A stretch of DNA of 29,172 bases from positions 1-29,172 of IMG/VR virus record IMGVR_UViG_3300030380_003538. One strand, 5' to 3'. Positions within the stretch are counted from its first letter, which is position 1; each line of letters begins with the position of its first letter. Made by a program: the position numbers and the translations under genes. This DNA comes from a virus. The notes under the pieces were generated by a model. It searched no databases. It was not told where the DNA came from and saw nothing but the letters and a program-made list of their open reading frames with translations. This document shows, in pieces, positions 2,130-12,826 of this stretch.

Positions 2130-2705
2130 ATGTGGAAACCTTTAATTATTGGCACAATATTAGCCACCATAATAATTTTTTTTCTCAATAGTATGATGAA
2201 CTCAGCACTTGCTGAGACAAACACAGTATCATCAACGGTAGTTACAAATTCGACACCTCCTACTGCAAATAGTCCAAGTGTAGTAGTAAATAATTCAGAT
2301 GTTTGTAAAACGGCTGTTGCAGGTGCCGTACAAACCCAGATTCTTGGAATTTCGTCTGGAATGACGGTGCGAGATGAAAATTGTGAACGATTAAAATTAT
2401 CTAGGTCTTTGTATGCTATGGGAATGAAAGTAGCTGCAATATCAACTTTATGTGCTGATAGTCGAGTTTTTGATGCGATGTGGAACGCAGGAACTTATTG
2501 TCCCTATAATGCAAACATAGGGGAAGATGCTAGAAAAGGTTGGGAAGAAAATTTAGAAGATATTCCAGAAGGTAGCGTAATATTTCAAAATATTACAGAG
2601 ACTAGAATTGAAATAAAAGAACAAACTGTAAGAGATTTAAATGATTTTGAAAAATTCGTTATTGTGGGCATGGCTATGTATATTGGTGTGCCTATCCTTT
2701 TCTAG
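2130..2705 (+). CDS. Exported Cys-containing protein of a marine-phage type
   Basis: 191 residues. Residues 5-27 form a signal peptide or anchor, with a plausible cleavage after ALA28. A low-complexity Thr/Ser/Pro/Val linker (about 30-55) precedes a domain with four cysteines (C59, C85, C108, C124) and the conserved-looking core GISSGMTVRDENCERLKLSR. I recognise this core from hypothetical proteins of marine phages, without a known function. The last 17 residues are hydrophobic. Paired cysteines suggest an oxidised periplasmic domain. It is the first gene of a run of envelope-directed proteins before lysozyme. Its 3' end overlaps the next gene by 65 bases. Confidence 0.75.
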   Translation: MWKPLIIGTILATIIIFFLNSMMNSALAETNTVSSTVVTNSTPPTANSPSVVVNNSDVCKTAVAGAVQTQILGISSGMTVRDENCERLKLSRSLYAMGMKVAAISTLCADSRVFDAMWNAGTYCPYNANIGEDARKGWEENLEDIPEGSVIFQNITETRIEIKEQTVRDLNDFEKFVIVGMAMYIGVPILF

Positions 2706-4227
2706 TAGAGCTGTTGATTGTACAACTGATACAGTTGGATTATGCACTCCTACGATTGAACAAATTATTGAAGAAACTAGCATTGAAACAATAGAGTTCC
2801 AAGCAGACGGAATACTTACGACTACTGAAACAACCACAACCACAACAACTACAACTGTTTCAAATCAAGATTCTGGCGATCTATTAGACGGAACTAATGA
2901 TTATGTAACGACAAAATATGAAGGCGATATGGATATTGATTGGGGAGGGCAAGGCCCTGCGTCCATGCCTAGTGGAAATACTTGTGGTCAATTAGGCACT
3001 GATAAATGTGCTATGATAACAGGAGGAGGAAGTTCAACTTCAACAATGGGTGTCGAAAATATGGGAACGACATTTATTCAAACTGTCAATATATCTGATC
3101 TAAATATTTCTAAAGGTGGACGAACTAATTATACAATTAAAGTAGAAAAACAAGATGCCCAGGATTCAATCTATATGCACATCACAGGGAAAAATGGAGC
3201 GACTGATGTTTTTTCTGGGACTGATATTTTATCTGCTAGCGGAACTAATAGTGGTTTTCAATCTTATGAAGGTGGATTTGATTTTTCTGGATCAATAACA
3301 ACAGTCATAATTGAAGTGGGAGGTAGAGATATAAATCTTGCCATAGGCCCCATGTTTGATGATGTCACCATCAATGTTTTGTATAATGTTATCAATACCA
3401 TTGTTGAGCAAACGATAACGAGTGTTGAAATGTTTGTAGCTTATAATATTGAAGCACCGGAAGAAGTCATAGATATAGTTGAAGATATTTTTGATTCTAA
3501 TATTCCTGTTGAAACAGATGTAGGATTAGACTTTGAACCAATAGAGATTGAAGAAGTTAATTATGAATCCGTTGAAATAGAAATTGCAGAAATAGAGATA
3601 GAAGAAATCCAAGTAGTTAATGTTGATTTATCAGAAAATGAGACTGTTGAAGTATCTATGGTTGATGTAGAAACTGAAATGGAATTAGAAATGGATTTAG
3701 AAATGGAAGTTGAAGATACTGTTGAAGCTCAACCAGAAGTCCAAGAAGAACCAGAAACAACAACAGAAGCGCCAAACGAAACGGAATCTGAAGAAACCAA
3801 CGAAGAATCTGTTGAAGAAGTAAAAGAGGAATCATCAGAAAAAGAAACAGAAATAGCAGAGTCAAAAGAAGAAACCAATGAACAAGAAATCCAAGAAGAA
3901 GAAAAAAAGGACGAAGAAGTAAAGACAGTTGATAAAAAAGAGTCATCTAAAGAAAAAGCAGCTAAAAAAATATTGAAAAAAATAGACGATAAAAAAAGAT
4001 ATGATTCTACTAGTCAATTAAAAACCCTTATAGTTATGCAAGTATTAGGGAACACTAAATCATTTTTTGAGGATCAGCAACAGTTGAACGATAGATTAGG
4101 ATTTTTTACAGATACTACTTTGCCAGATAGTTTTATTTCTGATAATAATATTGCAGGATATCTTCTATTTGGTGGAAGTGATTTTTTAATGAATGAAATG
4201 ATAGATAGTCAATGGCAACAGAAATAG
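2641..4227 (+). CDS. Large exported, Thr- and Glu-rich protein
   Basis: 528 residues. Residues 1-24 are a signal peptide (hydrophobic core LLWAWLCILVCLSF, then SSRA), which supports the ATG at 2641 even though it overlaps the upstream gene by 65 bases. A Thr run lies near residues 59-72. A Gly/Ser-rich beta domain (about 90-250) follows. Residues about 255-440 are extremely acidic (repeated Glu-Ile-Glu and EET/EES words), then Lys-rich, and about 440-528 is a mixed helical domain. Size and layout resemble acidic proteins seen in marine myo- and siphoviruses. Whether it is a virion part or a cell-envelope protein made before lysis is not shown. Its stop lies inside the start of the next gene. 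Confidence 0.75.
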   Translation: MILKNSLLWAWLCILVCLSFSSRAVDCTTDTVGLCTPTIEQIIEETSIETIEFQADGILTTTETTTTTTTTTVSNQDSGDLLDGTNDYVTTKYEGDMDIDWGGQGPASMPSGNTCGQLGTDKCAMITGGGSSTSTMGVENMGTTFIQTVNISDLNISKGGRTNYTIKVEKQDAQDSIYMHITGKNGATDVFSGTDILSASGTNSGFQSYEGGFDFSGSITTVIIEVGGRDINLAIGPMFDDVTINVLYNVINTIVEQTITSVEMFVAYNIEAPEEVIDIVEDIFDSNIPVETDVGLDFEPIEIEEVNYESVEIEIAEIEIEEIQVVNVDLSENETVEVSMVDVETEMELEMDLEMEVEDTVEAQPEVQEEPETTTEAPNETESEETNEESVEEVKEESSEKETEIAESKEETNEQEIQEEEKKDEEVKTVDKKESSKEKAAKKILKKIDDKKRYDSTSQLKTLIVMQVLGNTKSFFEDQQQLNDRLGFFTDTTLPDSFISDNNIAGYLLFGGSDFLMNEMIDSQWQQK

Positions 4228-4697
4228 ATGTAGGCGGAGTAAAATTTAGGGGAGGTAGATTATTTCTCATAATTACAATATTAAGTTCTTTCGTGGGTGT
4301 TTTATGGGGAGGATTTGAAGCATATCAACGATATTTAGATATGGAAGCTAAAATAAATAATTTTGTTTCACCGGATATGTCTGGATTTGATAAAAAATTA
4401 GAAGTCCTAGATACTGAATTCAATATGTTACAATCTGAAATATCAATAATACTTGAGGAAGTTGCATTAGTTGCTGATGTTGCTAAAGAACTTAAAAACG
4501 ATCTAAAAGCAGATGTTCGTAGAATTGAAACAATAGTTGAAGATGTGGAAACTAGAGTCAAAGAGGATTCAAGAGAGAATTCTAAAGATCTAAAAGAAGC
4601 AATAAATGAGATAAAAGACGATATGACTGAACTAGAAGAAAAGATAGAAAAGAAGATTAGAAACGCATTAGAGAACCCTTTAAGCCAGTTGAAATAA
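4212..4697 (+). CDS. Membrane-anchored coiled-coil protein
   Basis: 161 residues. The N-terminus is MATEIDVGGVKFRGGRLF, then one membrane segment (about residues 16-35). From about 55 to the end there are heptad-like patterns of Leu/Ile/Val with Glu/Lys, a long coiled coil. The topology would put a short tail on one side and a rod of about 120 residues on the other. It overlaps the acidic exported gene by 16 bases, so the two are probably translationally coupled and may act together. It could be a spanin-like or envelope-bridging part, but no partner with outer-membrane features sits beside it, so that remains a guess. Confidence 0.75.
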   Translation: MATEIDVGGVKFRGGRLFLIITILSSFVGVLWGGFEAYQRYLDMEAKINNFVSPDMSGFDKKLEVLDTEFNMLQSEISIILEEVALVADVAKELKNDLKADVRRIETIVEDVETRVKEDSRENSKDLKEAINEIKDDMTELEEKIEKKIRNALENPLSQLK

Positions 4698-4722
4698 AAA
4701 TAGGATATGGTATTTGTAAGAT

Positions 4723-4911
4723 ATGACTAAGATCACTCCAAAAACTACAAAAGAACATATAGTCAATATTTATAACAAAATTGAATTGTTAGAAACAAAT
4801 CATATTCATCATCTACAAAAAGAAGTTAGAAAATTAAATTATGTTTTATGGACTATTGCATTTATGGTTGCTACTCAGTTCATATCCTGGATATTGAGAA
4901 TGGTCGGATAA
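4723..4911 (+). CDS. Small single-pass membrane protein, possible holin or antiholin
   Basis: 62 residues. Residues 1-38 are polar with a helical heptad look (IYNKIELLETNHIHHLQKEV). Residues 39-58 are one membrane segment (LNYVLWTIAFMVATQFISWI). The stop codon overlaps the lysozyme ATG (TAATG). The position directly before the endolysin is the classic site for a holin. The more convincing holin lies downstream (5440), so this could be an antiholin or a pinholin-like partner. Confidence 0.7.
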   Translation: MTKITPKTTKEHIVNIYNKIELLETNHIHHLQKEVRKLNYVLWTIAFMVATQFISWILRMVG

Positions 4912-5357
4912 TGGATTTACATACATTACAACAAGAAATTATCCAAGAAGAAGGCGGAATCATTTTAAAACCTTATCAAGATCATTTAGGATATTGGACT
5001 ATTGGTGCAGGTCATTTGATTAGGGACAATGAAAAACAAGAACTTATGCAACCAATAACATATCAAAGAGGATTAGAATTATTTCTAAAAGATTTTAATG
5101 TTTCACAAAAAGATATGGAAACTTTTACAGAGGGCATGAATATTGATGATAATGCAAAAGAATGTGTTTTACATATGGTTTTTCAACTAGGTTTGCCACG
5201 ATTGAATAAATTTGTTAAATTTAAAAAATGTTTATCTGAAAATAATATTGAAGGTGCAATCGAAGAAATGAGGGATAGTTTATGGTACAATCAAACAACA
5301 AACAGGGCAAATCGCATAATAGAAAAAATGCAAAAAAGCGCAAAGTCAAACGCATAA
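4911..5357 (+). CDS. Endolysin, T4-type lysozyme (GH24 muramidase)
   Basis: 148 residues. It hydrolyses the beta-1,4 bond between N-acetylmuramic acid and N-acetylglucosamine in peptidoglycan at lysis. The E-D-T catalytic pattern of GH24 is visible: Glu14 (EEGG), Asp24 (YQDHLG) and Thr30 in GYWTIGAGH. The Glu-Asp spacing is one residue longer than in T4 lysozyme. Length is near the usual 145-165. I chose ATG 4911 (TAATG overlap with the upstream stop). An upstream ATG at 4848 in the same frame would add 21 residues that duplicate the coding of the previous gene. There is no signal peptide, so release depends on a holin. Confidence 0.88.
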   Translation: MDLHTLQQEIIQEEGGIILKPYQDHLGYWTIGAGHLIRDNEKQELMQPITYQRGLELFLKDFNVSQKDMETFTEGMNIDDNAKECVLHMVFQLGLPRLNKFVKFKKCLSENNIEGAIEEMRDSLWYNQTTNRANRIIEKMQKSAKSNA

Positions 5358-5440
5358 CAACTATGGAAGAAAAAAAAGAAATTGAAAAAAACAGATTATC
5401 CTACCTCAAAAGAGCATGGATATTATTAGGGGGTAAATAA
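5282..5440 (+). CDS. Small basic protein overlapping the lysozyme end
   Basis: 52 residues if it starts at the ATG at 5282 inside the last part of the lysozyme gene, or 25 if it starts at the ATG at 5363 after the lysozyme stop. The long form begins MVQSNNKQGKSHNRKN and is rich in Lys/Arg. The end reads RLSYLKRAWILLGGK. Its stop overlaps the ATG of the holin gene (TAATG), which favours a real, coupled gene. Without it there would be an 82-base gap. No membrane segment or motif reveals the role. The start is undecided. Confidence 0.5.
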   Translation: MVQSNNKQGKSHNRKNAKKRKVKRITTMEEKKEIEKNRLSYLKRAWILLGGK

Positions 5441-5856
5441 TGGTATTAGGAAAATTATTATCTGGAGGATTAGTTGATAGTGTTGGAAAAATAGTTGACG
5501 ATCTTCATGTAAGCGAAGAAGAAAAACAACAAGCTAAAGCAAAACTTATTGAATTAGAAAATCAAGTTAAACTAAAACAAATGGATATAAATTTAGCTGA
5601 CGCAAAATCTACAGCTGGTGGTATTTCTGGAATGTTGCAGCGTTCCTGGAGGCCCTTAATTGGAATGTCATGTGCATTAGCAATTTTTTGGGAATTCGTT
5701 TTAAGTAAATTTATTTTATTTATTTGTGGTTTGTTTCAATATGAAGTGGTAAACATACCAGAATTAGATATGGGAACTCTCATGCCATTAGTCATGTCAC
5801 TTTTAGGAATGGGGGCGCTCCGTACCTTCGAAAAAACTCGTGGGATTTCTAAGTAA
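5440..5856 (+). CDS. Holin of the three-TM gene-transfer-agent type
   Basis: 138 residues. The layout matches the GTA_holin_3TM family: an N-terminal amphipathic region (VDSVGKIVDDLHVSEEEKQ), then a charged helix, the motif SWRPLIGM near residue 70, three hydrophobic segments (about 72-86, 87-100, 112-128), and the typical end RTFEKTRGISK. In gene transfer agents and related phages it permits endolysin access to the wall. It lies just after lysozyme, as expected for a lysis cassette. Family assignment is from motif memory. Confidence 0.85.
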   Translation: MVLGKLLSGGLVDSVGKIVDDLHVSEEEKQQAKAKLIELENQVKLKQMDINLADAKSTAGGISGMLQRSWRPLIGMSCALAIFWEFVLSKFILFICGLFQYEVVNIPELDMGTLMPLVMSLLGMGALRTFEKTRGISK

Positions 5857-10897: not shown

Positions 10898-11714
10898 AGA
10901 AAAATTAAAAGCTTGGTATTTATTTACCGAAGATTTTATCGCAGGAACTCAACATTTAACAAATCAAGAAATAGGAATTTATATTCGTTTGCTTTGTTGG
11001 AATTGGAATAAAAGATGTCCTGGACTTCCCAAAGATATGAATACTATATTACGAATTGCTAATTGTATTACTGATTCAGAAAAGTTTTCATGTGAAAAAA
11101 TAGTAAATGAGTTTTTCGTATTGATAAATGATCATTATCAAAATGAAAGACAACTACAAGAATTTTTATATATTACAAAAAGAATTGAAGCTTCTAAAGA
11201 AAATGGAAAATTAGGTGGTCGTCCAAAAAAACCTAGCACAAACCCCCCTACCTCTACCACTACCCCTACCAATAAAACCACTAGTAAATATAATCCTTTG
11301 TTTAATTTATTTTGGGATAAAATTAATAATAAAGTTTCTAAAGGAACAGCAGAAAAAAATTTTTTACGAATAGAACAAGAATGGCAAGATAAAGCTGAAG
11401 ATCTAGCAAAATTATATAATTCTTATTATGATTCAGTAAAAGATAAAGAATATGCAAAACAACCGGCTTTTTGGCTATCGGCTAAAAAATATTTAGATAA
11501 ACTTCCAGAAAAAAATTATAATTTTGGAGTAGTTAATAGAGATGAAGAACGAGTAAAAATGTTTGTAGAAGCAATAAAAAATAATAAAGTTACTCAATTT
11601 ATTAAGGATTATGCCTTACGAAACAAAGATATTATTGATATGGGAATAAAAAAAGGATTAATCACAAAAGATCAAGCAATTAATGATTTAGAAATGAGGA
11701 ATGAATATTTATGA
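10869..11714 (+). CDS. DUF1376-type replication protein
   Basis: 281 residues from ATG 10869, which has GGAGG 6 bases upstream; the frame extends to an ATG at 10857 that contains that site and is rejected. The N-terminal 100 residues match the DUF1376 pattern (WYLFTEDFIAGTQHLTNQEI, then YIRLLCWNW and LPKDMNTILRI), a winged-helix domain of phage replication proteins. A basic Lys/Pro/Thr linker (about 115-145) leads to a helical C-terminal part. In other phages such proteins pair with a DnaC- or helicase-type partner, which is absent here. It is the only visible replication-initiation candidate. Its stop overlaps the next ATG (ATGA). Confidence 0.75.
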   Translation: MFIDENSKPKEKLKAWYLFTEDFIAGTQHLTNQEIGIYIRLLCWNWNKRCPGLPKDMNTILRIANCITDSEKFSCEKIVNEFFVLINDHYQNERQLQEFLYITKRIEASKENGKLGGRPKKPSTNPPTSTTTPTNKTTSKYNPLFNLFWDKINNKVSKGTAEKNFLRIEQEWQDKAEDLAKLYNSYYDSVKDKEYAKQPAFWLSAKKYLDKLPEKNYNFGVVNRDEERVKMFVEAIKNNKVTQFIKDYALRNKDIIDMGIKKGLITKDQAINDLEMRNEYL

Positions 11715-12826
11715 ATATACAAGAAATAGAAATAGAAAAATTAATTCCATATCATAATAATCCAAGAAAAGATCAAGCAATAGATAAAGTTGCAAGTTCT
11801 ATAAATGAATATGGATTTCAGCAGCCAATAGTCGTAGATAAAAAAATGATTGTAATTGTGGGACATACTCGATTGTTAGCGTCTAAAAAACTTGGATTAA
11901 AAAAAGTTCCTGTGTTCATAGCAGATTTATCAGAAACAAAAGCAAAAGCTTATAGAATTGCAGATAATAGATTGAATGAAGATAGCGCCTGGGATTTAGA
12001 TTTATTGAATCTAGAGATATCAGATTTATTAGATGATAATTATGATCTTAATTTATTAGGATTTGATCCAAAAGAATTAGATAAAATAATTGTTGATGAT
12101 AAAGAATATTTTAGCGATGAAGATGAAATCCCAGAAAATGTATCAGATAGAGGAATAAAACAAGGCGATATATATGAATTAGGCCGTCATAGGTTGATGT
12201 GTGGGGATTGTACTGACGAAGAAAGTGTAAAAAAATTATTAAATAATGAGGAAATAGAAATGTCTTTTATTGATCCTCCATATGGCCTAGATTATGAATA
12301 TAACTCCTACAAAGATATAGAGGGAGCTGAATATCTTGCTTTTTGTGATAAATGGTTTCAATTATTAGAAAAATATTCAAAGTTTAATTTTATTACAGCT
12401 GGTTGGAAATATAATGAATATTGGATAAAAAAGGGGCCTAAAGATATATTTTATTGGCTATCTAGAAATAAACAAACAGGCGGAAAATTATCTCATTTTA
12501 GGAAGATTGAACCTATATTTTTATTTGGAAGTTTACCTAAAAAAGTAAGATATGATCTAGATTATTTTGATTTTAATAGTGATAGATTAGACGGATTGAG
12601 AGATTTACATACATGTCCAAAACCAGTAAAGTTTGTTGAATCAGCTATCAATGTTATTACAAAAAAGAATGTTTTAGATTTATTTTTAGGTTCTGGAACT
12701 TCTTTGATTGCATGTGAAAATCTAAATAAAAATTGTTTTGGAATGGAACTTGATCCTAAATATATAGATGTAATTATTCAACGATTTGAAAATTATACAA
12801 AGATAAAAGCAAAAAAAATTAATTAG
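11711..12826 (+). CDS. ParB-like nuclease domain fused to an N6-adenine/N4-cytosine DNA methyltransferase
   Basis: 371 residues. Residues 1-90 form a ParB/Srx-like domain (LIPYHNNPRKDQ, then GFQQPIVVDKKMIVIVGHTR and ADNRLNE). A linker leads to the methyltransferase: the catalytic motif DPPY at 188-191 comes before the SAM-binding FLGSGT near 325, the order of beta-class enzymes. It would methylate an exocyclic amino group in phage DNA using S-adenosylmethionine. ParB-methylase fusions are known in phages and mobile elements. No restriction enzyme is adjacent, so it is an orphan, probably protecting phage DNA or marking it for packaging. Confidence 0.9.
   Translation: MNIQEIEIEKLIPYHNNPRKDQAIDKVASSINEYGFQQPIVVDKKMIVIVGHTRLLASKKLGLKKVPVFIADLSETKAKAYRIADNRLNEDSAWDLDLLNLEISDLLDDNYDLNLLGFDPKELDKIIVDDKEYFSDEDEIPENVSDRGIKQGDIYELGRHRLMCGDCTDEESVKKLLNNEEIEMSFIDPPYGLDYEYNSYKDIEGAEYLAFCDKWFQLLEKYSKFNFITAGWKYNEYWIKKGPKDIFYWLSRNKQTGGKLSHFRKIEPIFLFGSLPKKVRYDLDYFDFNSDRLDGLRDLHTCPKPVKFVESAINVITKKNVLDLFLGSGTSLIACENLNKNCFGMELDPKYIDVIIQRFENYTKIKAKKIN

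Follow-up and report, generated by a model that had tools for sequence, protein, structure and literature searches.

Three consecutive genes of a marine phage genome, here called P1, P2, and P3, are a conserved, co-diverging module, and it is well supported that this module is real and directed at the cell envelope. Our preferred explanation, which we put forward tentatively, is that the three proteins would form a late-expressed, envelope-bridging complex that takes over the part of spanins at lysis. An earlier note on this DNA had suggested that the genes bridge the envelope or replace spanins, and both suggestions are plausible in light of our analysis. Approximately 13% of surveyed phages, many of them marine, have no identifiable spanin, and how the outer membrane is opened in these phages is an open question (PMC6139136). 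For spanin-less outer-membrane opening in marine phages, the module is a concrete, testable candidate. Should its role prove to be surface exclusion, it would still count as an envelope system not described before, and one found across siphoviruses, podoviruses, and myoviruses.

We analyzed a stretch of 29,172 nucleotides (hereafter, the window) that makes up most of the 30,917-base virus record IMGVR_UViG_3300030380_003538. The genes of this record are of a small siphovirus type (terminase, portal, scaffold, capsid, and tape measure). The features of the locus, in window coordinates, are as follows:

2130-2705, + strand: P1, 191 aa, with predicted signal peptide, short S/T/N-rich segment, four-Cys domain (aa 59-131), and transmembrane (TM) helix (aa 172-190)
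2304-2522, + strand: four-Cys domain of P1 (C59, C85, C108, C124), the most conserved part of the protein
2641-2705, + strand: overlap of the P1 C-terminal TM helix and the P2 signal peptide, 65 nt, the same bases in two frames
2641-4227, + strand: P2, 528 aa, predicted to be exported
2752-3441, + strand: P2 predicted beta-sandwich, carbohydrate-binding-module-like (aa 38-267; AF2 pLDDT mostly about 90 or more)
3526-3942, + strand: P2 Glu-rich linker, predicted to be disordered (aa 296-434; pLDDT < 50)
3943-4224, + strand: P2 C-terminal helical region, whose distances track those of P1 and P3
4212-4697, + strand: P3, 161 aa, with predicted N-in TM helix and coiled coil
4674-4682, + strand: Asn-Pro-Leu (NPL) near the P3 C-terminus, invariant in 61 aligned relatives
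4723-4911, + strand: 62-aa protein with predicted C-terminal TM helix, adjoining P3 in close relatives only; a neighbor outside the core
4908-5357, + strand: lysozyme (endolysin), a neighbor (PF00959, E 3e-10)
5440-5856, + strand: 3-TM holin, a neighbor (PF11351, E 4e-10; phrog_3427, E 1e-25)

The four ORFs reported earlier, their overlaps, and their share of about 9% of the genome are all real: positions 2130-4911 cover 9.5% of the window and 9.0% of the whole record (2782 of 30,917 bases), with overlaps of 65 nt between P1 and P2 and 16 nt between P2 and P3. The 62-residue gene, previously counted as the fourth member of the cassette, falls outside the core because the stretch between P3 and the lysozyme differs among relatives. 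Upstream of P1, ORFs match tail-fibre PHROGs. The lysozyme probably starts at 4908 rather than at 4848, judging by the onset of lysozyme-like sequence. Throughout, the calls of signal peptides and TM helices come from reading the sequence rather than from a dedicated predictor. Elsewhere in the window, one ORF (11711-12826) matches both a ParB-like domain and DNA methyltransferase PHROGs.

Confirmed relatives of P1 occur in at least 599 stretches in a scan of IMG/VR, and a tblastn search of 50,697 records identified nine phages: six pelagiphages, one Roseobacter phage, one Mediterranean fosmid phage, and one spring-water phage. P1 is followed by P2- or P3-like genes in all nine; the middle gene of the module differs in CRP-207, and the second gene of ctXG6705 has no clear relation to P2. 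Bacterial or archaeal assemblies yielded a further 22 loci; as most of these assemblies are metagenome bins, the loci are probably viral. Among the 52 P1 loci with at least 5.5 kb of downstream sequence, which define the testable set, a P3 profile match was present on the same strand in 51 and a P2 profile match in 47; the counts are not independent, since many of the contigs are close relatives of one another or duplicates of a single contig. With the window's holin as anchor, P1-P2-P3 were recovered on its upstream side in almost every locus that offered 4.5 kb or more. The exceptions are contigs L212 and L213, in which the lysozyme-holin pair is present and the trio absent; in two others (L106 and L093), the holin precedes P1. 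At the module's usual place, L212 (6997-7867) and L213 (4180-5050) encode membrane proteins of 78 aa and 213 aa.

Across 48 loci, the pairwise distances of P1, P2, and P3 correlate with r of 0.80-0.91, versus 0.38-0.60 between the trio and the adjacent holin and lysozyme in the same loci. The co-occurrence of P1 and P3 goes beyond chance, and together the co-occurrence and these correlations show that the trio is inherited as a unit, partly independent of its neighbors. The earlier note had proposed co-occurrence across marine phages as a check on its idea, and the outcome favors a unit over independent occurrence. Co-divergence is evidence of co-inheritance, not of physical contact.

Previously described as a Cys-containing exported protein, P1 is indeed predicted to be exported and has four cysteines; what that description overlooked is a C-terminal hydrophobic helix. 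Because this helix is present besides the signal peptide, P1 in the window's clade is probably a type-I membrane protein. The four cysteines are invariant in a 10-sequence alignment, and each is at least 90% conserved in 75 sequences. Many relatives carry S/T/N/G-rich segments, of which the P1 of the window has one short example. The AlphaFold (AF2) model of P1 (mean pLDDT 82, mostly at least 90 over residues 90 to 160) combines a beta-hairpin and helices with a long helix at the C-terminus; this and the other structure models were built on alignments of loci from outside the annotated phage records. Neither the comparison of the model with PDB folds (best E 0.85) nor a PDB sequence search gave a match. 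P1 matches phrog_20531 (E 5e-11), as do nine of ten tested phage P1s.

The overlap between P1 and P2 merits separate consideration. The C-terminus of P1 is hydrophobic in 94% of 84 loci where the two genes overlap, versus 20% of 30 loci where they do not. Within the overlap, third-position changes in P2 fall from 0.46 to 0.31, and P1 varies least at its second codon position, in a comparison that is ungapped and unphylogenetic. This substitution pattern suggests that both reading frames are under constraint. Given the pattern, we do not favor the idea that the C-terminal TM helix of P1 is a mere by-product of the P2 signal peptide.

For P2, a head with a CBM4/6-type beta-sandwich fold is strongly predicted. 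Foldseek matched the modeled head to CBM4-2, the Fbs1 sugar-binding domain, and CBM6 (prob 1.00, E 4.5e-5 to 1e-3), and two P2 relatives weakly matched CBM_4_9 (best E 0.009). Distances of the helical tail correlate with those of P1 and P3 at r 0.82-0.91, and those of the head track P1 least (r 0.77).

P3 has a TM helix near residues 17-37, followed by a coiled coil, and net charge places its N-terminus on the inside in 52 of 62 relatives. The protein is strongly predicted to be a type-II (N-in, C-out) inner-membrane protein with periplasmic helices, which is the topology of an i-spanin. Outside the NPL, its length and sequence vary; the C-terminal NPL is present in 152 of 157 P3 ORFs versus 24 of 7636 other ORFs. 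An assignment of P3 to DUF2730 was discarded, as this family is absent among the Pfam matches shown, which are generic coiled-coil. CRP-207 gp73 (L009 3292-3873) looks misnamed: it is annotated as ‘putative lysozyme’, but its product is a TM coiled coil that resembles P3 and has the terminal NPL. Separately, a TM coiled-coil protein is common to HTVC019P (L229 38973-39338; phrog_20984) and HTVC115P (L001 7836-8198), located upstream of the terminase or inside the module; it is an i-spanin-like candidate without a lipoprotein partner.

We detected no lipoprotein or spanin gene in the record, in agreement with the earlier statement that no clear spanin pair is seen. No lipobox ORF was found in any frame of the 30,917 bases, and the same scan recovers T7 Rz1. 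The lipobox scan extended to the module phages other than Mosig, with HTVC023P covered up to its last 1,278 bases. Once ORFs opposite longer ORFs were removed, HTVC202P, S28-C10, ctXG6705, and HTVC023P had no lipobox ORF, and those of HTVC115P, HTVC033P, and CRP-207 are all doubtful. Baldr is not clean, because one doubtful ORF was kept and an intergenic candidate (37082-37246) was dropped by the opposite-ORF filter. The Rz family PF03245 gave no match over the cut-off in any of the nine phages that carry the module, and T7, the positive control, was recognized. HTVC019P has neither the module nor Rz, and a missing spanin is therefore neither a predictor of the module nor diagnostic of it.

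P1-P3 have no Pfam or PHROG spanin match and, more generally, no Pfam, NCBIfam, or functional PHROG assignment; together with the lack of any description in the literature searched, this bears out the earlier view of an undescribed system of exported and membrane proteins. No outer-membrane anchor is evident in P1-P3 (no lipobox and no predicted barrel), and P1, which has the C-terminal TM helix of a unimolecular spanin, has no lipobox. Judged by sequence, we reject membership of the module in the spanin family because the lipobox is lacking. Profile searches gave no support for either spanin or curli family membership, with no Pfam match between the P1-P3 sets and the curlin, CsgG, or CsgF families.

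The position of the module varies across phages. In the window's clade, it adjoins lysozyme and holin, and an endolysin (family-confirmed or annotated) lies within four genes of it in HTVC023P, ctXG6705, and HTVC033P. In the T7-like phage S28-C10, it is located between the tail-fibre genes and the terminase, a region that holds Rz/Rz1 in T7. It lies beside the terminase and far from the endolysin in HTVC202P and Baldr, among capsid and head-completion genes in contigs L033 and L048, and beside lipoprotein genes in L060 and L065 (neighbors in these four contigs were named by eye). Given these last two phages and four contigs, we rejected a strict tie to lysis cassettes as a general rule. With neighbors this varied, the module is thus portable, traveling with lysis genes often, not always. 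In L060 (6052-7565) and L065 (11209-12749), which are probable pelagimyophage contigs, a run of lipoprotein and membrane genes forms an envelope island. In HTVC115P, a gene annotated as toxin-activating lysine-acyltransferase (L001 11243-11692) is downstream of the module.

As the module is far from lysis genes in some phages, surface exclusion and surface display stay rivals to a role in lysis. Under the former, the exported proteins would coat or mask the envelope of the infected cell and keep out other phages or their DNA (superinfection exclusion), with no part in lysis. All three proteins are predicted to be exported or membrane-bound, the glycan-binding-type head of P2 is the part that tracks P1 least, the module lies beside a lipoprotein cluster in L060 and L065, and P1 homologues occur by themselves in bacteria and the phage JWDelta. 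However, in most of the phages examined the module is surrounded by late or structural genes, and in several separate lineages it adjoins holin or endolysin; we consider exclusion unlikely. For HTVC033P, Mosig, S28-C10, and CRP-207, the holin was called from seeds of our own choice, and PHROGs lists these families as unknown or gives them no match.

The adjacency to holin and lysozyme would also suit a complex that tethers the inner membrane to peptidoglycan and delays or localizes lysis without breaking the outer membrane. A glycan-binding-type head combined with inner-membrane anchors and no outer-membrane anchor is what such envelope stabilization would call for; on the other hand, an endolysin is not always nearby, and the timing effect is itself conjectural. 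We regard this explanation as improbable. That the genes lie beside fibre genes in the window, and beside capsid genes in L033 and L048, could instead mean that the proteins belong to the virion or its assembly, being encoded among tail and head genes. This is very improbable, given that two of the proteins have signal peptides, that P1 and P3 have TM helices, and that the neighbors change among phages while the trio stays; the earlier suggestion of virion parts exported to the surface is disfavored.

Homologues of P1 also exist outside the module. Relatives in Burkholderia and Variovorax match phrog_20531 as well, and in these replicons the P1 homologues are found near Ser/Thr/Gly/Asn-rich exported proteins, without P2 or P3. 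Two of these loci (L114 6476-9785 and L113 6953-8953, from Burkholderia and Variovorax) combine a P1-like protein with other Ser/Thr/Gly/Asn-rich exported proteins and regulators, possibly a bacterial surface system without family assignment. Among 295 scanned genomes of a single bacterial order, P1 was detected only in the genome already known, which argues against P1 as a common chromosomal gene in that order. The Achromobacter phage JWDelta has a P1 homologue without P2 or P3, and a separate Rz-like lysis gene. The JWDelta relative is annotated as similar to ORF070 of Ralstonia phage RSL1; RSL-1 is listed as spanin-less (PMC6139136), a connection that is anecdotal.

The company kept by the Burkholderia-type relatives, along with the S/T/N/G-rich segments in many P1 relatives, would fit extracellular display, in which P1 and P2 act as surface fibres that make infected cells stick, like the proposed phage curli; curli genes and ‘sibling capture’ have been discussed for pelagiphages (PMC7029224, PMC9599517). 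The curlin, CsgG, and CsgF searches speak against this explanation, as do the shortness of the S/T/N-rich segment in the window's P1, the predicted membrane anchoring of that protein, and the predicted retention of P3 in the inner membrane. We judge it decidedly improbable.

We thus return to an envelope-bridging complex that acts at lysis. Here, P3 would be anchored in the inner membrane and extend its coiled coil into the periplasm; P1 would be exported, with a periplasmic four-Cys domain that is probably disulfide-bonded, and in the window's clade its C-terminal helix would hold it in the inner membrane. P2 would also be exported, and a long acidic tether would link its glycan-binding-type beta-sandwich to the helices at its C-terminus. 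The C-terminal NPL of P3 and the P2 helices may dock on one another or on P1, and the complex would tie the inner membrane to envelope glycan. Once holin and lysozyme have removed the peptidoglycan restraint, it would collapse the envelope. The physical complex, its glycan target, its late expression, and its role in outer-membrane disruption are what we infer from inheritance as a unit, adjacency to holin and lysozyme, the lack of detected spanins, the i-spanin topology of P3, and the sugar-binding-type head of P2. Against this stand the positions in HTVC202P, Baldr, L033, L048, L060, and L065, the lysozyme-holin pair without the module in L212 and L213, and the P1 homologues without P2/P3 in Burkholderia, Variovorax, and JWDelta, the last having its own Rz-like gene. 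With no recognizable outer-membrane anchor, the outer-membrane end is missing from the bridging model. The broader claim, that the module is a lipoprotein-free, three-protein machine for outer-membrane disruption in abundant spanin-less phages of SAR11 and other marine bacteria, is doubtful at present.

The module shares features with several known systems. With phrog_20531 it has P1 in common, and the difference is that the JWDelta relative and the bacterial loci have no P2/P3. P2 aa 38-267 are predicted to share a fold with CBM4 and CBM6 modules at low sequence identity (about 10-15%); unlike these, P2 has an acidic linker and helical tail attached, has no enzyme domain, and its glycan binding is putative. 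Like the pelagiphage curli (CsgG/CsgF), which have been suggested to act in lysis or aggregation, P1-P3 are exported envelope genes of marine phages, but they lack a curli family match. The P1 of the window's clade resembles the unimolecular spanin T1 gp11 in combining an exported N-terminal part with a C-terminal TM helix; it differs in having a signal peptidase I-type signal, no lipobox, and, by conservation, two partner genes. Compared with the two-component spanins (lambda Rz/Rz1, T7 gp18.5/18.7), the module has three conserved genes, no lipoprotein partner, no detected Rz homology, and a large secreted protein with a carbohydrate-binding-type head. Shared with them are a type-II inner-membrane coiled coil (P3) made alongside exported proteins, gene overlaps, cysteines in one of the exported partners, and a frequent location in lysis cassettes or near the terminase. 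The P1/P2 overlap resembles the ‘overlapped’ spanin architecture, in the description of which a type-I inner-membrane protein could act as an i-spanin (PMC6139136).
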